A DNA stretch of 36,879 nucleotides from Wohlfahrtiimonas larvae (GCF_002006755.1 NZ_MVDO01000113.1:1-36879), one strand, 5' to 3'; shown: positions 10,268 through 17,572, numbered from the stretch's first letter. Notes: a model not told the origin generated them from the letters alone. A program made the numbers and translations.

Positions 10268-10744
10268 CTAATCTATCTTTTTCAACTGATCACCAATTTC
10301 AATGCCCAAGCGTTTACGCTCACCTTTACCAATTTCAAGCACATATTTGCCTTGTACTTTTGAAGGATAAGATGGACAAGGATCATTTAAACATGGCACA
10401 GCTTCTGCAAAATCAACCAATCTACCTTCTTCATCAAAATACAGAATATCTAAAGGTATCTTTGTATTCTTCATCCAAAAACTCAATGGCTGAGTTTGGT
10501 TAAATACAAACAACATCCCTTGATTTTCTGGCAAAATCAAACGATTCATTAAGCCATAAGCTTGCGTTCTTGTTGTGGTTGCTAACTCAACCTGAATGGT
10601 TTTATCATTGATCACAATATCCGCCAAAGGCAAATGTGATTGCCCATGCTGCTCATTGCGTTCTTGCCAAAACTCACCAGCCGTTGCAAATGTTAAAGAT
10701 AACGTCAATAGTGCTACTGATCTTTGTTTCCAATTAGTGATCAT
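10268..10744 (-). CDS. DUF192 family exported protein
   Basis: Small exported protein (158 residues from the chosen ATG) of the DUF192 family, whose function is not known. It starts MITNWKQRSVALLTLSL with a short basic N-region and hydrophobic core, consistent with a signal peptide ending near ATAGEF. The family core is clear: GLMNRLILPENQGMLFVF, LSFWMKNTKIPLDILYF and the VPCLNDPCPSYPS cysteine segment. The ATG at 10742-10744 is preceded by GAGGA and lies inside the last codons of roxA (11-base overlap). The longer in-frame start at 10789 reads a low-complexity stretch antisense-free but within the roxA tail and has no homology. It is the last gene of the spoT operon before the rpsO promoter. 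Confidence 0.88.
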   Translation of the reverse strand: MITNWKQRSVALLTLSLTFATAGEFWQERNEQHGQSHLPLADIVINDKTIQVELATTTRTQAYGLMNRLILPENQGMLFVFNQTQPLSFWMKNTKIPLDILYFDEEGRLVDFAEAVPCLNDPCPSYPSKVQGKYVLEIGKGERKRLGIEIGDQLKKID

Positions 10745-11951
10745 GATCGCAATCCTCATCGCATTCATGATCATGGTCATCTGCATCAAAAAATGCCAAG
10801 ATACCTTGGTTGACTAAATCCACCACAAACTCTGCTGCCACTTCATCTTTCAAAAATTGCAACATTTTACCTGGACTATATTGACGATTCTCACATAAGA
10901 ATTGAACCAATTTCGTATGTTTTTTATCTAATGCAAAACATTCCCCATTCGCATACATCACAACTTCATCTACTGTTTCTCTGAAATATAAAGAAACTGT
11001 TGGTACGCGTTCAATATCTGCGCCATCTTCCAATAATCCCTGAATTTCATCTTGGCTAAATTCTTCATCCAAAGTTTCAGGCTCTTGCCCTTCCTTACAT
11101 TCACTCATGAAACGGCCAAACCAATCCGCAACCAAATCACGATTATAAGATAAACCTTCTTGAATTACTTTCATCACACGATCAATGTCATCATCACTCA
11201 ACTCGGTTGAAAACTCGCGAGATACTAAGTCAGAATCTGAATAACGTACATCTGAACCGGTAAATTGAATAATATCTTCCACAAAATCATGAATCATCTC
11301 ACGATGCTTAGGCGCTCTAAAACCTACTGACCAAGTCATACTTTCACCAATTGCAACACCAAAGTGCCCAATTCTTGGCGGTAGATACAACAAATCACCC
11401 GGTTCTACAATCCACTCTTCATGAACATTAAACTTTTCAATCAAACGGATAGGTAAACCTTCTACAAAATCATTTTCAGAAACTTCATCATAACTAATTT
11501 GCCATTTCTTTTTACCCATACCTTGAATCAAAAATACATCATAATCATCCCAGTGTGCGCCTACAGTGCCTTCATCCACAGCATAGCTAACTTGAAGATC
11601 ATCCATGCGCCATTCAGGAATAAAATTAAAAGGATCAGATAAAACGCGCATTTGTGGCATAAATTTTTCCACATCATTCACCAACAATACCCATTTTTTC
11701 TCAGGTAAATTAGCAAAATCTTGCTCAGCAAAAGGTCCACATTTTAATTCCCAATTGCGCTCTTCAAATACAAAACGTGAGGGAACACCGTCTTCACAGC
11801 TTAATCCTGCAATTTCATCAGGAGTCATTGGATCTATAAAATCTTGAAATGCATTTTTCACAAATAAAGGTTTTTTCTGCCAATAATCTCTAAAAAACTC
11901 TTCAGCCGTCAACCCACCTAATACTTTCACAGGTTTGTTTGATTTGATCAT
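10734..11951 (-). CDS. roxA: 50S ribosomal protein L16 arginine 3-hydroxylase (RoxA/YcfD, cupin-4 JmjC) with metal-ligand tail
   Basis: Fe(II)/2-oxoglutarate-dependent oxygenase that in E. coli (YcfD) hydroxylates an arginine of ribosomal protein L16. The iron triad is visible as H133-x-D135 (in GAHWDDYDVFLIQG) and H196 (in PPRIGHFGVA). EEFFRDYWQKKPLFVKNAF is the typical N-terminus, and a winged-helix-like C-terminal region follows. The protein is 405 residues, longer than YcfD (373). The extra end is an acidic, His/Cys-rich tail, DADDHDHECDEDCDHDH, which looks like a metal-binding extension. The start overlaps the stop of the kinase gene by 4 bases (ATGA), and its end overlaps the DUF192 gene, so it is coupled on both sides. 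Confidence 0.93.
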   Translation of the reverse strand: MIKSNKPVKVLGGLTAEEFFRDYWQKKPLFVKNAFQDFIDPMTPDEIAGLSCEDGVPSRFVFEERNWELKCGPFAEQDFANLPEKKWVLLVNDVEKFMPQMRVLSDPFNFIPEWRMDDLQVSYAVDEGTVGAHWDDYDVFLIQGMGKKKWQISYDEVSENDFVEGLPIRLIEKFNVHEEWIVEPGDLLYLPPRIGHFGVAIGESMTWSVGFRAPKHREMIHDFVEDIIQFTGSDVRYSDSDLVSREFSTELSDDDIDRVMKVIQEGLSYNRDLVADWFGRFMSECKEGQEPETLDEEFSQDEIQGLLEDGADIERVPTVSLYFRETVDEVVMYANGECFALDKKHTKLVQFLCENRQYSPGKMLQFLKDEVAAEFVVDLVNQGILAFFDADDHDHECDEDCDHDH

Positions 11952-14284
11952 AAGAAAATATCCTTTTTCGCTTTTTGATCTGAAATATAATTTGTCACTT
12001 CTTCCATAGAAGCCAGTGGTAAATAGAAATAGAATGTTGTGCCAACATTTTCCACTGAATCATAGTGAATTGTGCCACCCATTCTTTCAATAAATGCTTT
12101 AGAAATACTCAATCCCAGCCCAGTTCCTTTAGAACGATGCTTAGCATCATCAGCTTGGGCAAATTTCATAAAGACTTTATCTTTAAAACTTTCTGGGATA
12201 CCTACACCATAATCTTGTATTTCTATACGAACTTTTTTGCCTTCTAATATAACGCGAACATCCACTTGACTTTCAGGCTTAGAAAATTTCGCTGCATTAG
12301 ATAGTAAGTTACTCATCACTTGTGTCAGTCGATCAGAATCACCCATAATATAAATAGGATAAGATGGTAATTCAGAAATAATTTTAACACCTAAATTTTG
12401 AGCATATAACTCATTTACTTCTACAGATTGACGTACAACAGTCACTATATCCACTGTTTTGAGATGAAAATCCAAAGTCCCTAATTGTATCTTTTGAATA
12501 TCCAAAATATCATTTACAAGACTTAATAAACGTTCACTATTACGGGAAGCTAGTTCTAATAGTTTTTGTGCCTTTGCAGGAATTTCCCCTGTAATACCGC
12601 TACTCATTAAACCTAAAGAACCTTTAATAGAAGTAATCGGTGTTCGCAACTCATGTGATACTGTTGCCACAAATTCTTGCGTGATAAATTCTGCCCGTTT
12701 TTGATCACTGATATCTCGGATGATACAAGCAAAACTGTTTTGACGATCTGATGAGCTTAAACGAGAAAATAATAATGCCGTTGGAATACCATTATATCGT
12801 GGGTTTTTTGAGACTAAAACACATTCTAATTGACTTGATTCTCTAGCATTTAACAATGTTCTAAAAATTTCCAAAGTATTAATCTGAGCGCCACCATGAG
12901 CAACATCAAATTTAAAATAATGTTCTAATGTTTCTGCCTCTTCAACCACTTGAAGATTAAAAAAATTCAAAGCAGTACTATTTGCAGTAATCAAATGACC
13001 TTCATCATCTGTTGATACAATACCTATCTGCAAACCATCCAGCAAAACCTTAAGTTGCTCTTCACTATCTCTCAAATCTGCCCAGATTTTCTCTTTCTCA
13101 TTCATTTCTTGAGCTAAACGCAAATTTGATATCACAAGCTTTTTAGTTCTATCTGCAACATTTAAATTCAGAGTACGATTTGCTTCTTTTAAACGCACAT
13201 GAATCTGGGCAATAGTATACAAAAAGATAATGCTGATCATAGCAAATGCCAATGCGATCGGCGAATACCAATAATTCTGGAAATAAAATAATAAGAATGT
13301 ACTACAAGTTAAAAAGCCAATATATAGTAATAAAAACCCTACAGTCACCAATGGAGAAGCAAAAATTGCTACCAATGCAATAATAACAATGGATACCATC
13401 GTGACAATGCTGTCAAATAAGCCACTAGAATACTCTGTAACAGCCTTACTACGTAATGCTTCAAAAATAGATGCCTGTACTTCAACGCCTGTTTTAAATG
13501 TACTGTTACGTAATGATGAGCTTCTCAAGCGTTCGCCAATACCTGTAGCACTTACACCAACAAAAACAATCTTATCTTTAAATTCTGAAGGGTCGATCCT
13601 TCCCATTAAAACATCAGAAAAAGAATAAGTAGGATATGTTCTTTCTGAAGAATAAATAAAACGAATCGGTTCATTTAAATTACCTGCATACAATTCTCGT
13701 GCAGTTTTCTGTTTAGGATCAACATCTGACAACGCATTCAATATAGCAAAAGAAAAACTGCGCATACCATCTAAATATGGATCGACAGATCTCACCACGC
13801 CATCACTATCAATATTCACTTCAACATGGCCAAAATGAGCGATATCTTCAAATGGTACTAGCCCATCCGATGAAAAAAATAAGGGTTTAGGCAGTACAAC
13901 TGCCCCATGTTTATCAATGGCTTTAGCTAAAATAGCATCGCTTGAGCTACTTTCAGTAAAAAGGATATCATAAGCAATAACCTTTACGCCCATACGAGTC
14001 AATTCAGTAATTAATCCTGCATGATATGCTCTAGGCCAAGGCCAAATCTTTTCTAGTGCTCGAATACTTTTATCATCAATCACGATCATAACAAGATCGC
14101 TATCTTTAACAGCAGGCTGAACTTTACTTTCTATAAAATAATCATATAAAGAGTATGAAAGGTTCTTGGTCACAGAAGATGATTTAAAAAACAAGTACAT
14201 GCCCATCATCATGATAATCAGGATGCAGGCGGTTACTACTAGTCGAAAGCGACCTTTATCTTTATCAAACCAATCACGAACCAA
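11948..14284 (-). CDS. CHASE2-PAS membrane sensor histidine kinase (orphan)
   Basis: Hybrid-free sensor kinase of 778 residues. One TM segment near 14-33 is followed by an extracytoplasmic CHASE2 domain (about 50-280; WPWPRAYHAGLITEL, AYDILFTE). Three clustered TM segments (about 282-358) come next, then a short coiled coil, a PAS domain (about 405-525) and HisKA with H544 in SHELRTPITS. HATPase_c follows with N-box NLLSNAAKFSK, G1 DYGVGIP and G2 GTGLGLS. CHASE2 senses unknown extracellular signals. No response regulator is encoded nearby, so the partner is unknown. The start lies 4 bases after the spoT stop and the end overlaps roxA, placing the kinase inside a stringent-response operon. Confidence 0.93.
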   Translation of the reverse strand: MVRDWFDKDKGRFRLVVTACILIIMMMGMYLFFKSSSVTKNLSYSLYDYFIESKVQPAVKDSDLVMIVIDDKSIRALEKIWPWPRAYHAGLITELTRMGVKVIAYDILFTESSSSDAILAKAIDKHGAVVLPKPLFFSSDGLVPFEDIAHFGHVEVNIDSDGVVRSVDPYLDGMRSFSFAILNALSDVDPKQKTARELYAGNLNEPIRFIYSSERTYPTYSFSDVLMGRIDPSEFKDKIVFVGVSATGIGERLRSSSLRNSTFKTGVEVQASIFEALRSKAVTEYSSGLFDSIVTMVSIVIIALVAIFASPLVTVGFLLLYIGFLTCSTFLLFYFQNYWYSPIALAFAMISIIFLYTIAQIHVRLKEANRTLNLNVADRTKKLVISNLRLAQEMNEKEKIWADLRDSEEQLKVLLDGLQIGIVSTDDEGHLITANSTALNFFNLQVVEEAETLEHYFKFDVAHGGAQINTLEIFRTLLNARESSQLECVLVSKNPRYNGIPTALLFSRLSSSDRQNSFACIIRDISDQKRAEFITQEFVATVSHELRTPITSIKGSLGLMSSGITGEIPAKAQKLLELASRNSERLLSLVNDILDIQKIQLGTLDFHLKTVDIVTVVRQSVEVNELYAQNLGVKIISELPSYPIYIMGDSDRLTQVMSNLLSNAAKFSKPESQVDVRVILEGKKVRIEIQDYGVGIPESFKDKVFMKFAQADDAKHRSKGTGLGLSISKAFIERMGGTIHYDSVENVGTTFYFYLPLASMEEVTNYISDQKAKKDIFL

Positions 14285-14288
14285 TGAG

Positions 14289-16475
14289 TCAAGCCTCGTC
14301 GTTTTGTCGTCCTATTCGTACGACATTTTCTAATTTTTTTAAATGTCGAAATACGTTCGCTAAGAAAATTCTATCAGGCACATGGATCAACATCCAAATA
14401 TGGCTAAAATCACCATTGATTGACTGCGTACGTAAGTCATTAATATTAACATCCATCTCTACTAATTCTTTAGTAATCTCTGCAATAACACCACGTTGAT
14501 TCTTAATGACAAAATAAAGTTGGACGGGGAATAAAGCTCTATCTTTATTATGATTCCAAACTAAAGGATAACAGCGCTCTAAATGTTTGAGTGCCTCTAC
14601 AGCGACATGACAATCGGTTCGATGTACAGCTAGTTCACCTTGGCGTGGATGCCAATAGCCCATAATATTATCACCTGGAATTGGATAACATTTATCACAA
14701 AAAACTAACTCACGACCACCAGCACCATCAACTGTATCACTATTTTGAACTGTATAATGCGAATGTTTAAATTCTTGTTCAACATCCAAGCCATGGGCTT
14801 CTAATCGATTGATAATGAATGACGCAGGGCGTTTGCCAGAACCAATCCCAGCATACATATCTTCAACAGATTCAACTTGTAACTCTTTTGCTAAACGTGC
14901 CAATACTGTATCTGTCAATTGTGTCAACGCAATATTTTTTTGCTTCATCGCATTTTCTAATAAGTTACGGCCAATCACAACTGTATCATCATAGCTTAAC
15001 TTACCAAGATAACCACGAATTGCCGATCTTGCTTTCGCTGTTCTCACAAACTCTAGCCACATAGGATTAGGCTGGGCACTTTGTGATGTTTGAATTTCTA
15101 CTGTTTGCCCAGTAATCAATACCTGAGAGATTGGTGCAAACTTTGCATCTACTTTAGCTGAGATACAATGATTACCAATATCAGAATGAATTGCATATGC
15201 AAAATCAACCGCAGTTGAACCTTTAGGCAATTCCATAATACGTCCATTAGGGGTAAAGACATAAATTTCTGAAGGAAAGAGATCCTCTTTCATAGAAGCC
15301 ATAAATTCTTCAGATGACAGCATGCTATTTTGCAATTCTGTTACATAATCTAGCCATTCGCGAGTCTTATTTTTTGTATAATTTTGTTCGCGATATGCCT
15401 CACCATAACGCCAATGCGCAGCTGCGCCTGCTTCTGCAATAATATGCATCTCTTTTGTGCGTATTTGTACTTCTACAGGTAGCATATTCGCGCCAAAAAC
15501 AACGGTATGCAAACTCTGATAACCATTGATTTTAGGAATAGCAATAAAATCTTTAAAGCGGCCAATGATTGGCTTATTCAAACTATGAACAATACCTAAT
15601 ACTCGGTAACATTCATCTGTACTATTAACAATTACTCTAATGGAGAAAATATCTGATAGCTGACTGGTGGAACCACGCTTTTGAAGTTTTTTATATAAAC
15701 TCCAACTGTGCTTTTCACGAATAGAGATTCGTGCAGAAATGCCAACAATGTCTAATTTTTCTTGAATGGCCTCACGAATCGTTTGAACTGTTGGACCTTG
15801 AGAGATACGCTTCTTATTCACAAACTCTTGCAAGACTCGATAGCGCATCGGATAAATATTTTCAAAGCATAGATTTTCTAACTCAACTTGTAATGCAAAC
15901 ATACCTAAGCGCGCTGCAATAGGCGTGTAAATATCCAAAGTATCACGAGCAATTCTACGTTTCTTATAAGGCGCTAAAGCACCTAATGTTCGCATATTGT
16001 GTAAACGGTCCGCCAACTTAACCATAATGACGCGCAAATCTTTGGTCATTGCTAAAATCATCTTTCTAAAATTTTCAGCCTTTGCCTCTAATTTAGAACT
16101 AAAACGAATTTTAGTCAGTTTACTGACACCATCCACAATTTCTGCTGTTTCTCGGCCAAATTTATCTTTAATTTCATCAAATGTGATATCTGTATCTTCG
16201 ATCACATCATGTAAAACAGCACCAACAATGGAATGAATATCCAATTGCACTAGCGTTAAAATTAATGCGACTTCAATGGGATGAAAAATATAAGGCTCAC
16301 CTGAGCTTCTAGATTGCCCTTGATGAGCCCACGCTCCAAAAATGCATGCCTCTCGAACCTTAGCTGTTTCAGCTTTGGTCATATATCGGCTTATACGAGC
16401 CTCTAACTCTGATACTTTTGCAAAAAATGCTTCGTTCCAGAGAGCCATTTCTTCAGGGAGCTTAATTGGTTCCAT
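14289..16475 (-). CDS. spoT: Bifunctional (p)ppGpp synthetase/hydrolase (SpoT/Rel)
   Basis: Makes and degrades the alarmone (p)ppGpp in the cytoplasm. It has 728 residues from the ATG at 16473-16475 (GGA seven bases before); an in-frame TTG four codons upstream is less likely. The N-terminal HD hydrolase is intact: H51 and H65 in the HQGQSRSSGEPYIFHP block, and H89 D90 with E93 D94 in AVLHDVIEDTDIT. The synthetase domain has GRFKDFIAIPKINGYQSLHT. TGS (EIYVFTPNGRIMELPKGST) and a C-terminal ACT domain (NQRGVIAEITKELVEMDVN) follow. The position after gmk and rpoZ is that of gammaproteobacterial spoT. Both activities look possible; a separate relA is not in this window. Confidence 0.96.
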   Translation of the reverse strand: MEPIKLPEEMALWNEAFFAKVSELEARISRYMTKAETAKVREACIFGAWAHQGQSRSSGEPYIFHPIEVALILTLVQLDIHSIVGAVLHDVIEDTDITFDEIKDKFGRETAEIVDGVSKLTKIRFSSKLEAKAENFRKMILAMTKDLRVIMVKLADRLHNMRTLGALAPYKKRRIARDTLDIYTPIAARLGMFALQVELENLCFENIYPMRYRVLQEFVNKKRISQGPTVQTIREAIQEKLDIVGISARISIREKHSWSLYKKLQKRGSTSQLSDIFSIRVIVNSTDECYRVLGIVHSLNKPIIGRFKDFIAIPKINGYQSLHTVVFGANMLPVEVQIRTKEMHIIAEAGAAAHWRYGEAYREQNYTKNKTREWLDYVTELQNSMLSSEEFMASMKEDLFPSEIYVFTPNGRIMELPKGSTAVDFAYAIHSDIGNHCISAKVDAKFAPISQVLITGQTVEIQTSQSAQPNPMWLEFVRTAKARSAIRGYLGKLSYDDTVVIGRNLLENAMKQKNIALTQLTDTVLARLAKELQVESVEDMYAGIGSGKRPASFIINRLEAHGLDVEQEFKHSHYTVQNSDTVDGAGGRELVFCDKCYPIPGDNIMGYWHPRQGELAVHRTDCHVAVEALKHLERCYPLVWNHNKDRALFPVQLYFVIKNQRGVIAEITKELVEMDVNINDLRTQSINGDFSHIWMLIHVPDRIFLANVFRHLKKLENVVRIGRQNDEA

Positions 16476-16495
16476 AGTAAGATCCAATCTGCTAA

Positions 16496-16756
16496 TTAAA
16501 ATTCAAAAGCTGTTTCAGGTTTAAAGCTTTCAACAATTACAGGTTTTGGCTTCACATTTAACTTTTTAATTTCATCCACTGTAATCAACTCCTCTGCAAT
16601 TTCACGTAGTGCCATCACTGTCACTTTTTCATGAGACGCAGGCAATTTAGTCTCTGCACCTAACGCTAGTTGATGAGCACGGCGAGAAGCCAATAAAACT
16701 AATTGGAAACGATTTTCTACTTTATCTAAACAATCTTCTACGGTTACACGTGCCAT
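16496..16756 (-). CDS. rpoZ: DNA-directed RNA polymerase omega subunit
   Basis: Small subunit that helps fold beta-prime and forms part of a ppGpp-binding site in proteobacteria. The 86 residues begin [20 protein letters not shown] and continue [29 protein letters not shown], all typical of omega. The gene lies between gmk (74-base gap) and spoT (20-base gap), so an effector site of ppGpp and the ppGpp enzyme are co-transcribed. Confidence 0.97.
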
Positions 16757-16830: not shown

Positions 16831-17463
16831 TTACGATTGCAATAATGATGAGATCAATAATTGATGTCGAACCTTTTGGTGATCTGCTTTCAAACGCTCT
16901 GCCATAATGATTGAACGTAAGTTTGCCAACGCAATATCAAAGTCATCATTCACTACTAAGTAATCAAAATCTTTATAATGCATAATCTGATTACTTGCAT
17001 CTTTCATTCGATTTTCTACAACTGCAACACTATCTTCATTACGCGCAAATAAGCGTGCTCGCAATGTTTCTAATGATGGTGGTAAAATAAAAATAGAGAT
17101 TGCTTCAGGATGACTAATGCGCACTTGTTCCGCACCCTGCCAATCAATCACTAAAATAACATCCATACCATGTCTTAACTTCGACTTAACTTCTTTCCAT
17201 GAAGTACCATAATGAGCATTAAAAACTTGGGCTGTTTCTACAAAACCACCTGATTCTTTCAATGCTAAAAAATCTTCCGCTGTCACAAAATGATAATGCA
17301 CACCATTTTTTTCGTTCGGTCTTGGTGGTCGTGTCGTGTGTGTTACCACTCGGCTAATATCTGGTGTACATTCAAGTAATTGGCTAACCAATGTCGTTTT
17401 ACCACCACCAGAAGGTGATGAAATGACGTAAAGATTGCCTAAGAACTTTTCGCGCTCACACAT
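16831..17463 (-). CDS. gmk: Guanylate kinase
   Basis: Converts GMP (or dGMP) to GDP with ATP in the cytoplasm. The protein has 210 residues. The P-loop is SPSGGGKTTL (residues 16-25), followed by THTTRPPRPNEKNGVHYHFV and VILVIDWQGAEQVR, which form the GMP-binding and core motifs. It is the first gene of gmk-rpoZ-spoT-kinase-roxA-DUF192. A good promoter at 17502-17530 lies upstream. The product feeds the GDP/GTP pool from which SpoT makes ppGpp, and in many bacteria guanylate kinase is itself inhibited by ppGpp. Confidence 0.97.
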   Translation of the reverse strand: MCEREKFLGNLYVISSPSGGGKTTLVSQLLECTPDISRVVTHTTRPPRPNEKNGVHYHFVTAEDFLALKESGGFVETAQVFNAHYGTSWKEVKSKLRHGMDVILVIDWQGAEQVRISHPEAISIFILPPSLETLRARLFARNEDSVAVVENRMKDASNQIMHYKDFDYLVVNDDFDIALANLRSIIMAERLKADHQKVRHQLLISSLLQS

Positions 17464-17501: not shown

Positions 17502-17530
17502 ATTATACAAAAATTAGCCACAACTTGTAA
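17502..17530 (-). promoter_or_regulatory. gmk: Candidate gmk operon promoter
   Basis: Minus-strand TTACAA (17525-17530), a 17-base spacer and TATAAT (17502-17507), 38 bases before the gmk ATG. Five of six -10-proximal features match sigma-70 consensus well; the -35 matches at four positions. Confidence 0.6.
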
Positions 17531-17572
17531 GACTCACCCCTCAGAATTCTTCTTCAATACAAAGGATTTACC

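Follow-up and report, generated by a model that had tools for sequence, protein, structure and literature searches.

The gene for a CHASE2 sensor histidine kinase that lies between spoT and roxA in a Wohlfahrtiimonas genome raises the question of which response regulator it serves, and of whether its location ties an extracytoplasmic signal to ppGpp metabolism. The original prediction for this region treated the kinase as an orphan and proposed such a tie. We analysed the window, a stretch of 36,879 nucleotides from Wohlfahrtiimonas larvae that is the whole contig G000:C17 of a 2.5-Mb genome, together with related genomes of the family Wohlfahrtiimonadaceae, in which four genera are referred to below: g1 (Wohlfahrtiimonas), g2 (the basal genus), g3, and g4, which by inference is probably Ignatzschineria. 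The term orphan holds only for the neighbourhood of the kinase. Gene pairing, co-occurrence, specificity residues and decay in g4 argue that the kinase is probably half of a two-component pair, whose partner would be RR-d, a receiver encoded elsewhere in the genome.

The operon and its kinase

The gene order on the minus strand is gmk, rpoZ, spoT, the CHASE2 kinase gene, roxA, a DUF192 gene, rpsO and pnp. The features of the window that are needed here are the following:

17502..17531, minus strand: promoter-like site 5' of gmk, with a -10-like TATAAT block (TTTTGTATAAT) invariant in six Wohlfahrtiimonas species
16831..17463, minus strand: gmk, first gene of the run
16496..16756, minus strand: rpoZ (reading frame and domain match)
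14289..16487, minus strand: spoT, bifunctional RelA/SpoT protein with HD_4, RelA_SpoT, TGS and ACT domains
11948..14284, minus strand: CHASE2-PAS sensor histidine kinase, 778 aa, TTG start (reading frame, Pfam, ortholog comparison, structure model)
10734..11951, minus strand: roxA, JmjC ribosomal oxygenase (putative), start overlapping the kinase stop (ATGA)
10268..10789, minus strand: DUF192 protein, overlapping the 3' end of roxA and belonging to the conserved block

Exactly 4 bases lie between the spoT stop and the kinase start (TGA-CTCA-TTG), and GAGG precedes the TTG; the junction in W. chitiniclastica reads TAATG. The kinase stop overlaps the roxA start by 4 bases, as originally described. 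The accompanying statements that trmH and recG are absent after spoT and that no response regulator lies nearby also proved correct for the window: roxA, DUF192, rpsO and pnp follow the kinase instead, and no receiver domain is encoded on the contig. The RoxA protein matches both JmjC_2 and the ROXA-like winged helix, which makes it a putative RoxA/YcfD ribosomal oxygenase.

Isolation of the kinase by an internal promoter and terminator, which had been named as a refuting case, was not observed. Inside the operon genes, promoter-like sites (26, with 34.5 expected) and terminator-like sites (7, with 4.5 expected) are about as frequent as chance would give, for which reason a terminator of the kinase's own was rejected; there is also no room for one, because of the 4-base gap upstream and the overlap downstream. 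Gene packing and the conserved TATAAT block 5' of gmk suggest a single transcript running from gmk through rpoZ, spoT and the kinase gene to roxA.

The predicted protein consists of a first transmembrane helix (TM1), an extracytoplasmic CHASE2 domain, three further TM helices (residues ~288-360), a coiled linker, a PAS-like region (~405-530), HisKA (His544) and HATPase_c. Matches to CHASE2 (PF05226; residues 29-305, E 1.5e-44, 153 bits against a curated cut-off of 26.3), HisKA (residues 536-601, E 1.1e-16, SHELRTP present) and HATPase_c (residues 648-758, E 2.4e-29) all lie well above the curated cut-offs, and none of the H, N, G1, F and G2 boxes varies across five Wohlfahrtiimonas orthologs. 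The PAS region of the window's kinase gave no Pfam match; the g2 ortholog matches PAS_9 above the cut-off at residues 438-546. A 405-residue structure model of fair quality (pLDDT 77) shows CHASE2 flanked by TM1 and the three TM helices. No usable fold relative of CHASE2 was obtained from this model (Foldseek best E 0.1, VIA best Z 5.4), PDB sequence matches for CHASE2 fell only onto the cyclase part carried by some relatives, and the model of the full-length kinase (pLDDT 39) was unusable. The dN/dS of the kinase gene (0.05-0.08) is close to that of spoT and roxA. Judged from its sequence, the kinase is a real and intact gene under purifying selection, of the predicted HisKA type.

Conservation of the gene order and history of the kinase in the family

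A search of 96 genomes found full-length kinase orthologs confined to the Wohlfahrtiimonadaceae, where they are present in all six g1 genomes, both g3 genomes (44% identity) and the single g2 genome (39%), and were not found in the nine genomes of g4. The expectation that the spoT-kinase-roxA order is conserved was upheld in part: it is constant in all eight g1 and g3 genomes (six Wohlfahrtiimonas, two g3), but not in g2, whose kinase gene lies downstream of the class 1 fructose-bisphosphatase gene (fbp), away from spoT and roxA, nor in g4, which has no kinase.

Nearest to the window's genome is W. populi (91% identity for the kinase, 97% for gyrB), in which the kinase frame is split (L003:9773-10405, NZ_MVDN01000004.1, inside G004:C34:244288-246938). 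At the split, the two copies of an exact direct repeat of 316 bp are linked by a single N; a mutation was therefore rejected and the split attributed to an assembly scar.

In g4, roughly 70 to 330 bases separate spoT from roxA, except where other genes lie between them. Relatives with neighbouring spoT and roxA and no kinase, the case that was to speak against the arrangement, are thus found in nine g4 genomes, but in view of the gyrB tree, (g2,(g1,(g3,g4))), the objection holds only in part. As this tree nests g4 with g3 (support is 100% for g3+g4, for g1+g3+g4 and for the whole family), the missing kinase of g4 is best read as a secondary loss. The simplest history suggested by these comparisons would place the kinase in the family ancestor, its placement in the spoT operon in the common ancestor of g1, g3 and g4, before the g1/g3 split, and its loss in g4, which would therefore make the arrangement old but dispensable.

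Two g4 genomes carry unrelated genes in the spoT-roxA gap: an inserted DUF3298 gene in G014 (L172:5706-6542) and IS3/IS481-type transposases in G015 (L173:6868-8850). In the Cardiobacteriaceae, a family of the same order, rpoZ-spoT-ridA is followed by an ORF of ~686 aa, which we take to be recG from its size; roxA was not found in the Cardiobacteriaceae examined.

We give an even chance to the view that the location is neutral, the kinase being merely co-expressed in a growth-linked operon and its pathway unrelated to ppGpp or ribosome hydroxylation. The kinase of g2 lies elsewhere, g4 lost the kinase yet kept spoT and roxA, and some g4 genomes have DUF3298 or IS elements where the kinase would be; on the other hand, the order and the tight junctions have been held across two genera despite a kinase identity of 44%. 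A neutral location is compatible with the pairing described below, which concerns the partner.

A candidate partner for the kinase

The window's genome encodes 15 receivers and 11 kinases that were used for best-match comparison, most of which form adjacent pairs. The receiver considered here is:

G000:C87:639-1022: RR-d, a 128-aa stand-alone receiver after hemE-NUDIX

Pairing of the two subfamilies was examined in both directions. At 20 loci of the kinase's closest relatives, the receiver next door best matches RR-d among the 15 in eight cases; the remaining 12 loci are without RR-d beside the kinase, and 11 of these lie in genomes with RR-d elsewhere. The reverse test used 29 relatives of RR-d from 274 gammaproteobacterial genomes. 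A kinase directly adjoins 16 of them, and every one of these 16 kinases best matches the CHASE2 kinase among the 11 (117-251 bits, against 82-105 for the runner-up), usually with a twofold lead in bits.

The phylogenetic profiling that had been suggested for finding the partner regulator also pointed to RR-d. In a sample of 64 gammaproteobacterial genomes, one per family, RR-d occurs in 12 of 13 genomes with a strong kinase relative and in 0 of the 51 others (Fisher 4e-12; the 51 negatives are partly inferred, and counting only those listed by name gives 1.5e-7). RR-d was not found in two kinase-bearing genomes that are incomplete (g2, 80% complete; G005, 81% complete). Inside g1 its identity is 93-98% in five of six genomes, the sixth being 81% complete, and between g1 and g3 it is 75%, higher than that of SpoT (54%) and RoxA (55%) at the same distance. 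A search of plasmid records for RR-d relatives returned only generic receivers below 60% identity.

Residues that determine partner specificity were compared at DHp positions H+4, +7, +8, +11, +12 and +15. The code TTSG[SA]L is common to g1, g2, g3 and 13 of the 16 kinases adjoining RR-d relatives; a fourteenth differs at one position, and the remaining two have another DHp type. This code is absent from all ten further kinases that the window's genome encodes. It tracks the kinase subfamily and is therefore not independent of the gene-neighbourhood evidence. Pairing elsewhere and a shared phylogenetic profile, two marks of a cognate pair, are both seen in the predicted kinase and RR-d.

Decay of RR-d in the genus without the kinase

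In g1 and g3, RR-d retains D12, D13, D57, T87 and K109. The syntenic gene is present in all nine g4 genomes at 30-39% identity, and in all nine the acidic pocket has been lost (D12 replaced by C, S or T; D13 by A or E), as has the proline after K109; in G014 the protein falls below the Pfam cut-off. Identity in beta1-alpha1 is 0.22 for g4 versus 0.92 for g3, and in alpha4-beta5-alpha5 it is 0.45 versus 0.82. No comparable acceleration is seen in gyrB (about 70%) or SpoT (about 54%), for which g1-g3 and g1-g4 are alike. Kinase loss and RR-d decay are a single event on one branch, on which Pil-Chp was lost too. Two sister genera, one with the kinase and one lacking it, form a natural before-and-after comparison, in which the pocket and the kinase-docking helix decay and the output face is partly kept.

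The pocket-less gene stays open in the nine g4 genomes (L197-L205), with a mean pairwise identity of 56%, and has the appearance of a conserved pseudo-receiver.

Proposed signalling and its probable ancestral output

We favour, with a probability of about 0.7, the reading that the kinase is the sensor half of a pair with RR-d, that the ancestral c-di-GMP output of this pair has been lost, and that loss of the kinase in g4 went with decay of RR-d. The kinase gene is probably expressed as part of the gmk-rpoZ-spoT message. A signal received by CHASE2 outside the membrane would pass through the last three TM helices and the coiled linker to PAS and to His544 of HisKA, from which the phosphoryl group would be transferred to Asp57 of RR-d. 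In g4, both the kinase and the phosphorylation pocket of RR-d are gone. The comparisons show the architecture of the kinase, its location, its conservation and its loss, as well as the pairing of the genes in other genomes; we infer the phosphotransfer, the single transcript and the direction of signalling, as we do any link to ppGpp.

The third gene of the related clusters in other genera encodes an Hpt-REC-GGDEF protein. As relatives of the kinase lie beside an RR-d relative and this protein, the pair probably served c-di-GMP synthesis in the ancestor. A search for GGDEF domains was negative in 11 Wohlfahrtiimonadaceae genomes, whereas it detected them in all of the 3 other genomes of the order that were searched and in 8 of 14 control genomes. 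The old output therefore appears to be gone, and RR-d would have to act through contact with another protein or through a phosphorelay. Pil-Chp genes are present in g1-g3, although the family genomes are without GGDEF. The system may thus represent a c-di-GMP signalling module that has outlived the loss of c-di-GMP, and the role of such a receiver is directly testable; for the kinase once called an orphan, there is now a specific candidate partner with which pairing can be tested.

Other readings of the locus

In a further reading, which we think unlikely, a pair that formerly served a diguanylate cyclase would have been rewired in this family without c-di-GMP: the kinase would have gained the CHASE2 sensor and the spoT-operon site, RR-d would now control a new target, possibly SpoT or translation, and the g4 receiver would be an unphosphorylated pseudo-receiver.

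We also regard it as improbable that, through the kinase, an extracytoplasmic signal governs how the genes for ppGpp metabolism and ribosome hydroxylation in the same operon are expressed. Such control would fit the tight gene packing in two genera and the purifying selection on the kinase. However, RR-d, the likely partner, has no DNA-binding domain and is therefore unlikely to control the spoT operon directly; moreover, g4 retains spoT-roxA without the kinase, the g2 kinase adjoins fbp, and no regulatory site was found. The signalling tie originally proposed thus found no support: the position in the operon gives at most co-expression with growth-linked genes, and the link to ppGpp is so far one of co-location only. 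Relatives of RoxA matter for translation at nutrient limitation (PMC4295552), so that a shared theme is conceivable.

We give little credence to a partner other than RR-d, that is, the NtrX-like receiver beside topA (L150, G000:C80) or a Pil-Chp receiver, even though no kinase gene adjoins these receivers either in the genome of the window. An NtrY-like kinase (L156, G000:C249, after rsmB-DUF4390) is likewise unpaired, and kinase and receiver of this type, which lie apart in the Wohlfahrtiimonadaceae examined, form an adjacent pair in the Cardiobacteriaceae; these names, and those of the neighbouring genes, are our assumption from gene size and gene order. The small receivers C54, C240 and C88 presumably belong to the Pil-Chp system (C240 and C88 by similarity, with less certainty), and Pil-Chp receivers are present in the Cardiobacteriaceae, where the CHASE2 kinase is absent. 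None of these candidates best matches the receivers adjoining relatives of the kinase. With the NtrX-like and Pil-Chp receivers assigned in this way, RR-d is therefore left as the unassigned receiver.

Finally, decay of the kinase itself, for which only the two frames in W. populi (G004/L003) could be cited, can be dismissed, given the assembly scar, the intact state of every box and the low dN/dS.

Comparison with known systems

In E. coli the corresponding region reads gmk/rpoZ-spoT-trmH-recG: gmk, rpoZ and spoT lie together, as here, whereas in the window kinase-roxA-DUF192-rpsO-pnp replaces trmH-recG. Our literature search found nothing on a histidine kinase in a spoT operon, on the kinase-RR-d pair or on two-component systems of Wohlfahrtiimonas.

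The BiofilmReg kinase of Burkholderia (PMC5192318), for which the CHASE2 ligands are described as unknown, has the same succession of TM, CHASE2, three TM, PAS and HisKA/HATPase regions as the window's kinase. Its operon holds genes for a CreB-type regulator and a substrate-binding protein, whereas the window's kinase belongs to a spoT-roxA operon and probably works with a distant stand-alone receiver; neither a CreB-like regulator nor a substrate-binding protein lies beside the kinase in the window or in its spoT-kinase-roxA relatives. The CHASE2 extracytoplasmic sensor is shared with CyaD1, CyaD2 and CyaK of Sinorhizobium meliloti, adenylate/guanylate cyclases whose output is cyclase rather than kinase activity; the CHASE2 cyclases of Sinorhizobium respond to a plant protein through the outer-membrane protein NsrA (PMC13001267).

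As a stand-alone receiver that would have to use protein contacts or a phosphorelay, RR-d resembles the receiver hubs MrrA of Caulobacter (PMC5964349) and DivK; this is a likeness in kind, and no orthology is claimed. In kinase module, specificity residues and receiver subfamily, the window's kinase and RR-d come closest to gammaproteobacterial clusters that combine a PAS-HisKA kinase, a stand-alone receiver and an Hpt-REC-GGDEF protein (L250, L253, L260). These have HAMP, GAF or MASE3 sensors, adjacent genes and GGDEF, whereas the system described here has CHASE2, genes that lie apart and no GGDEF. Compared with them, the kinase and RR-d probably form a two-component pair whose genes have separated, whose sensor has been exchanged and whose output has been lost.
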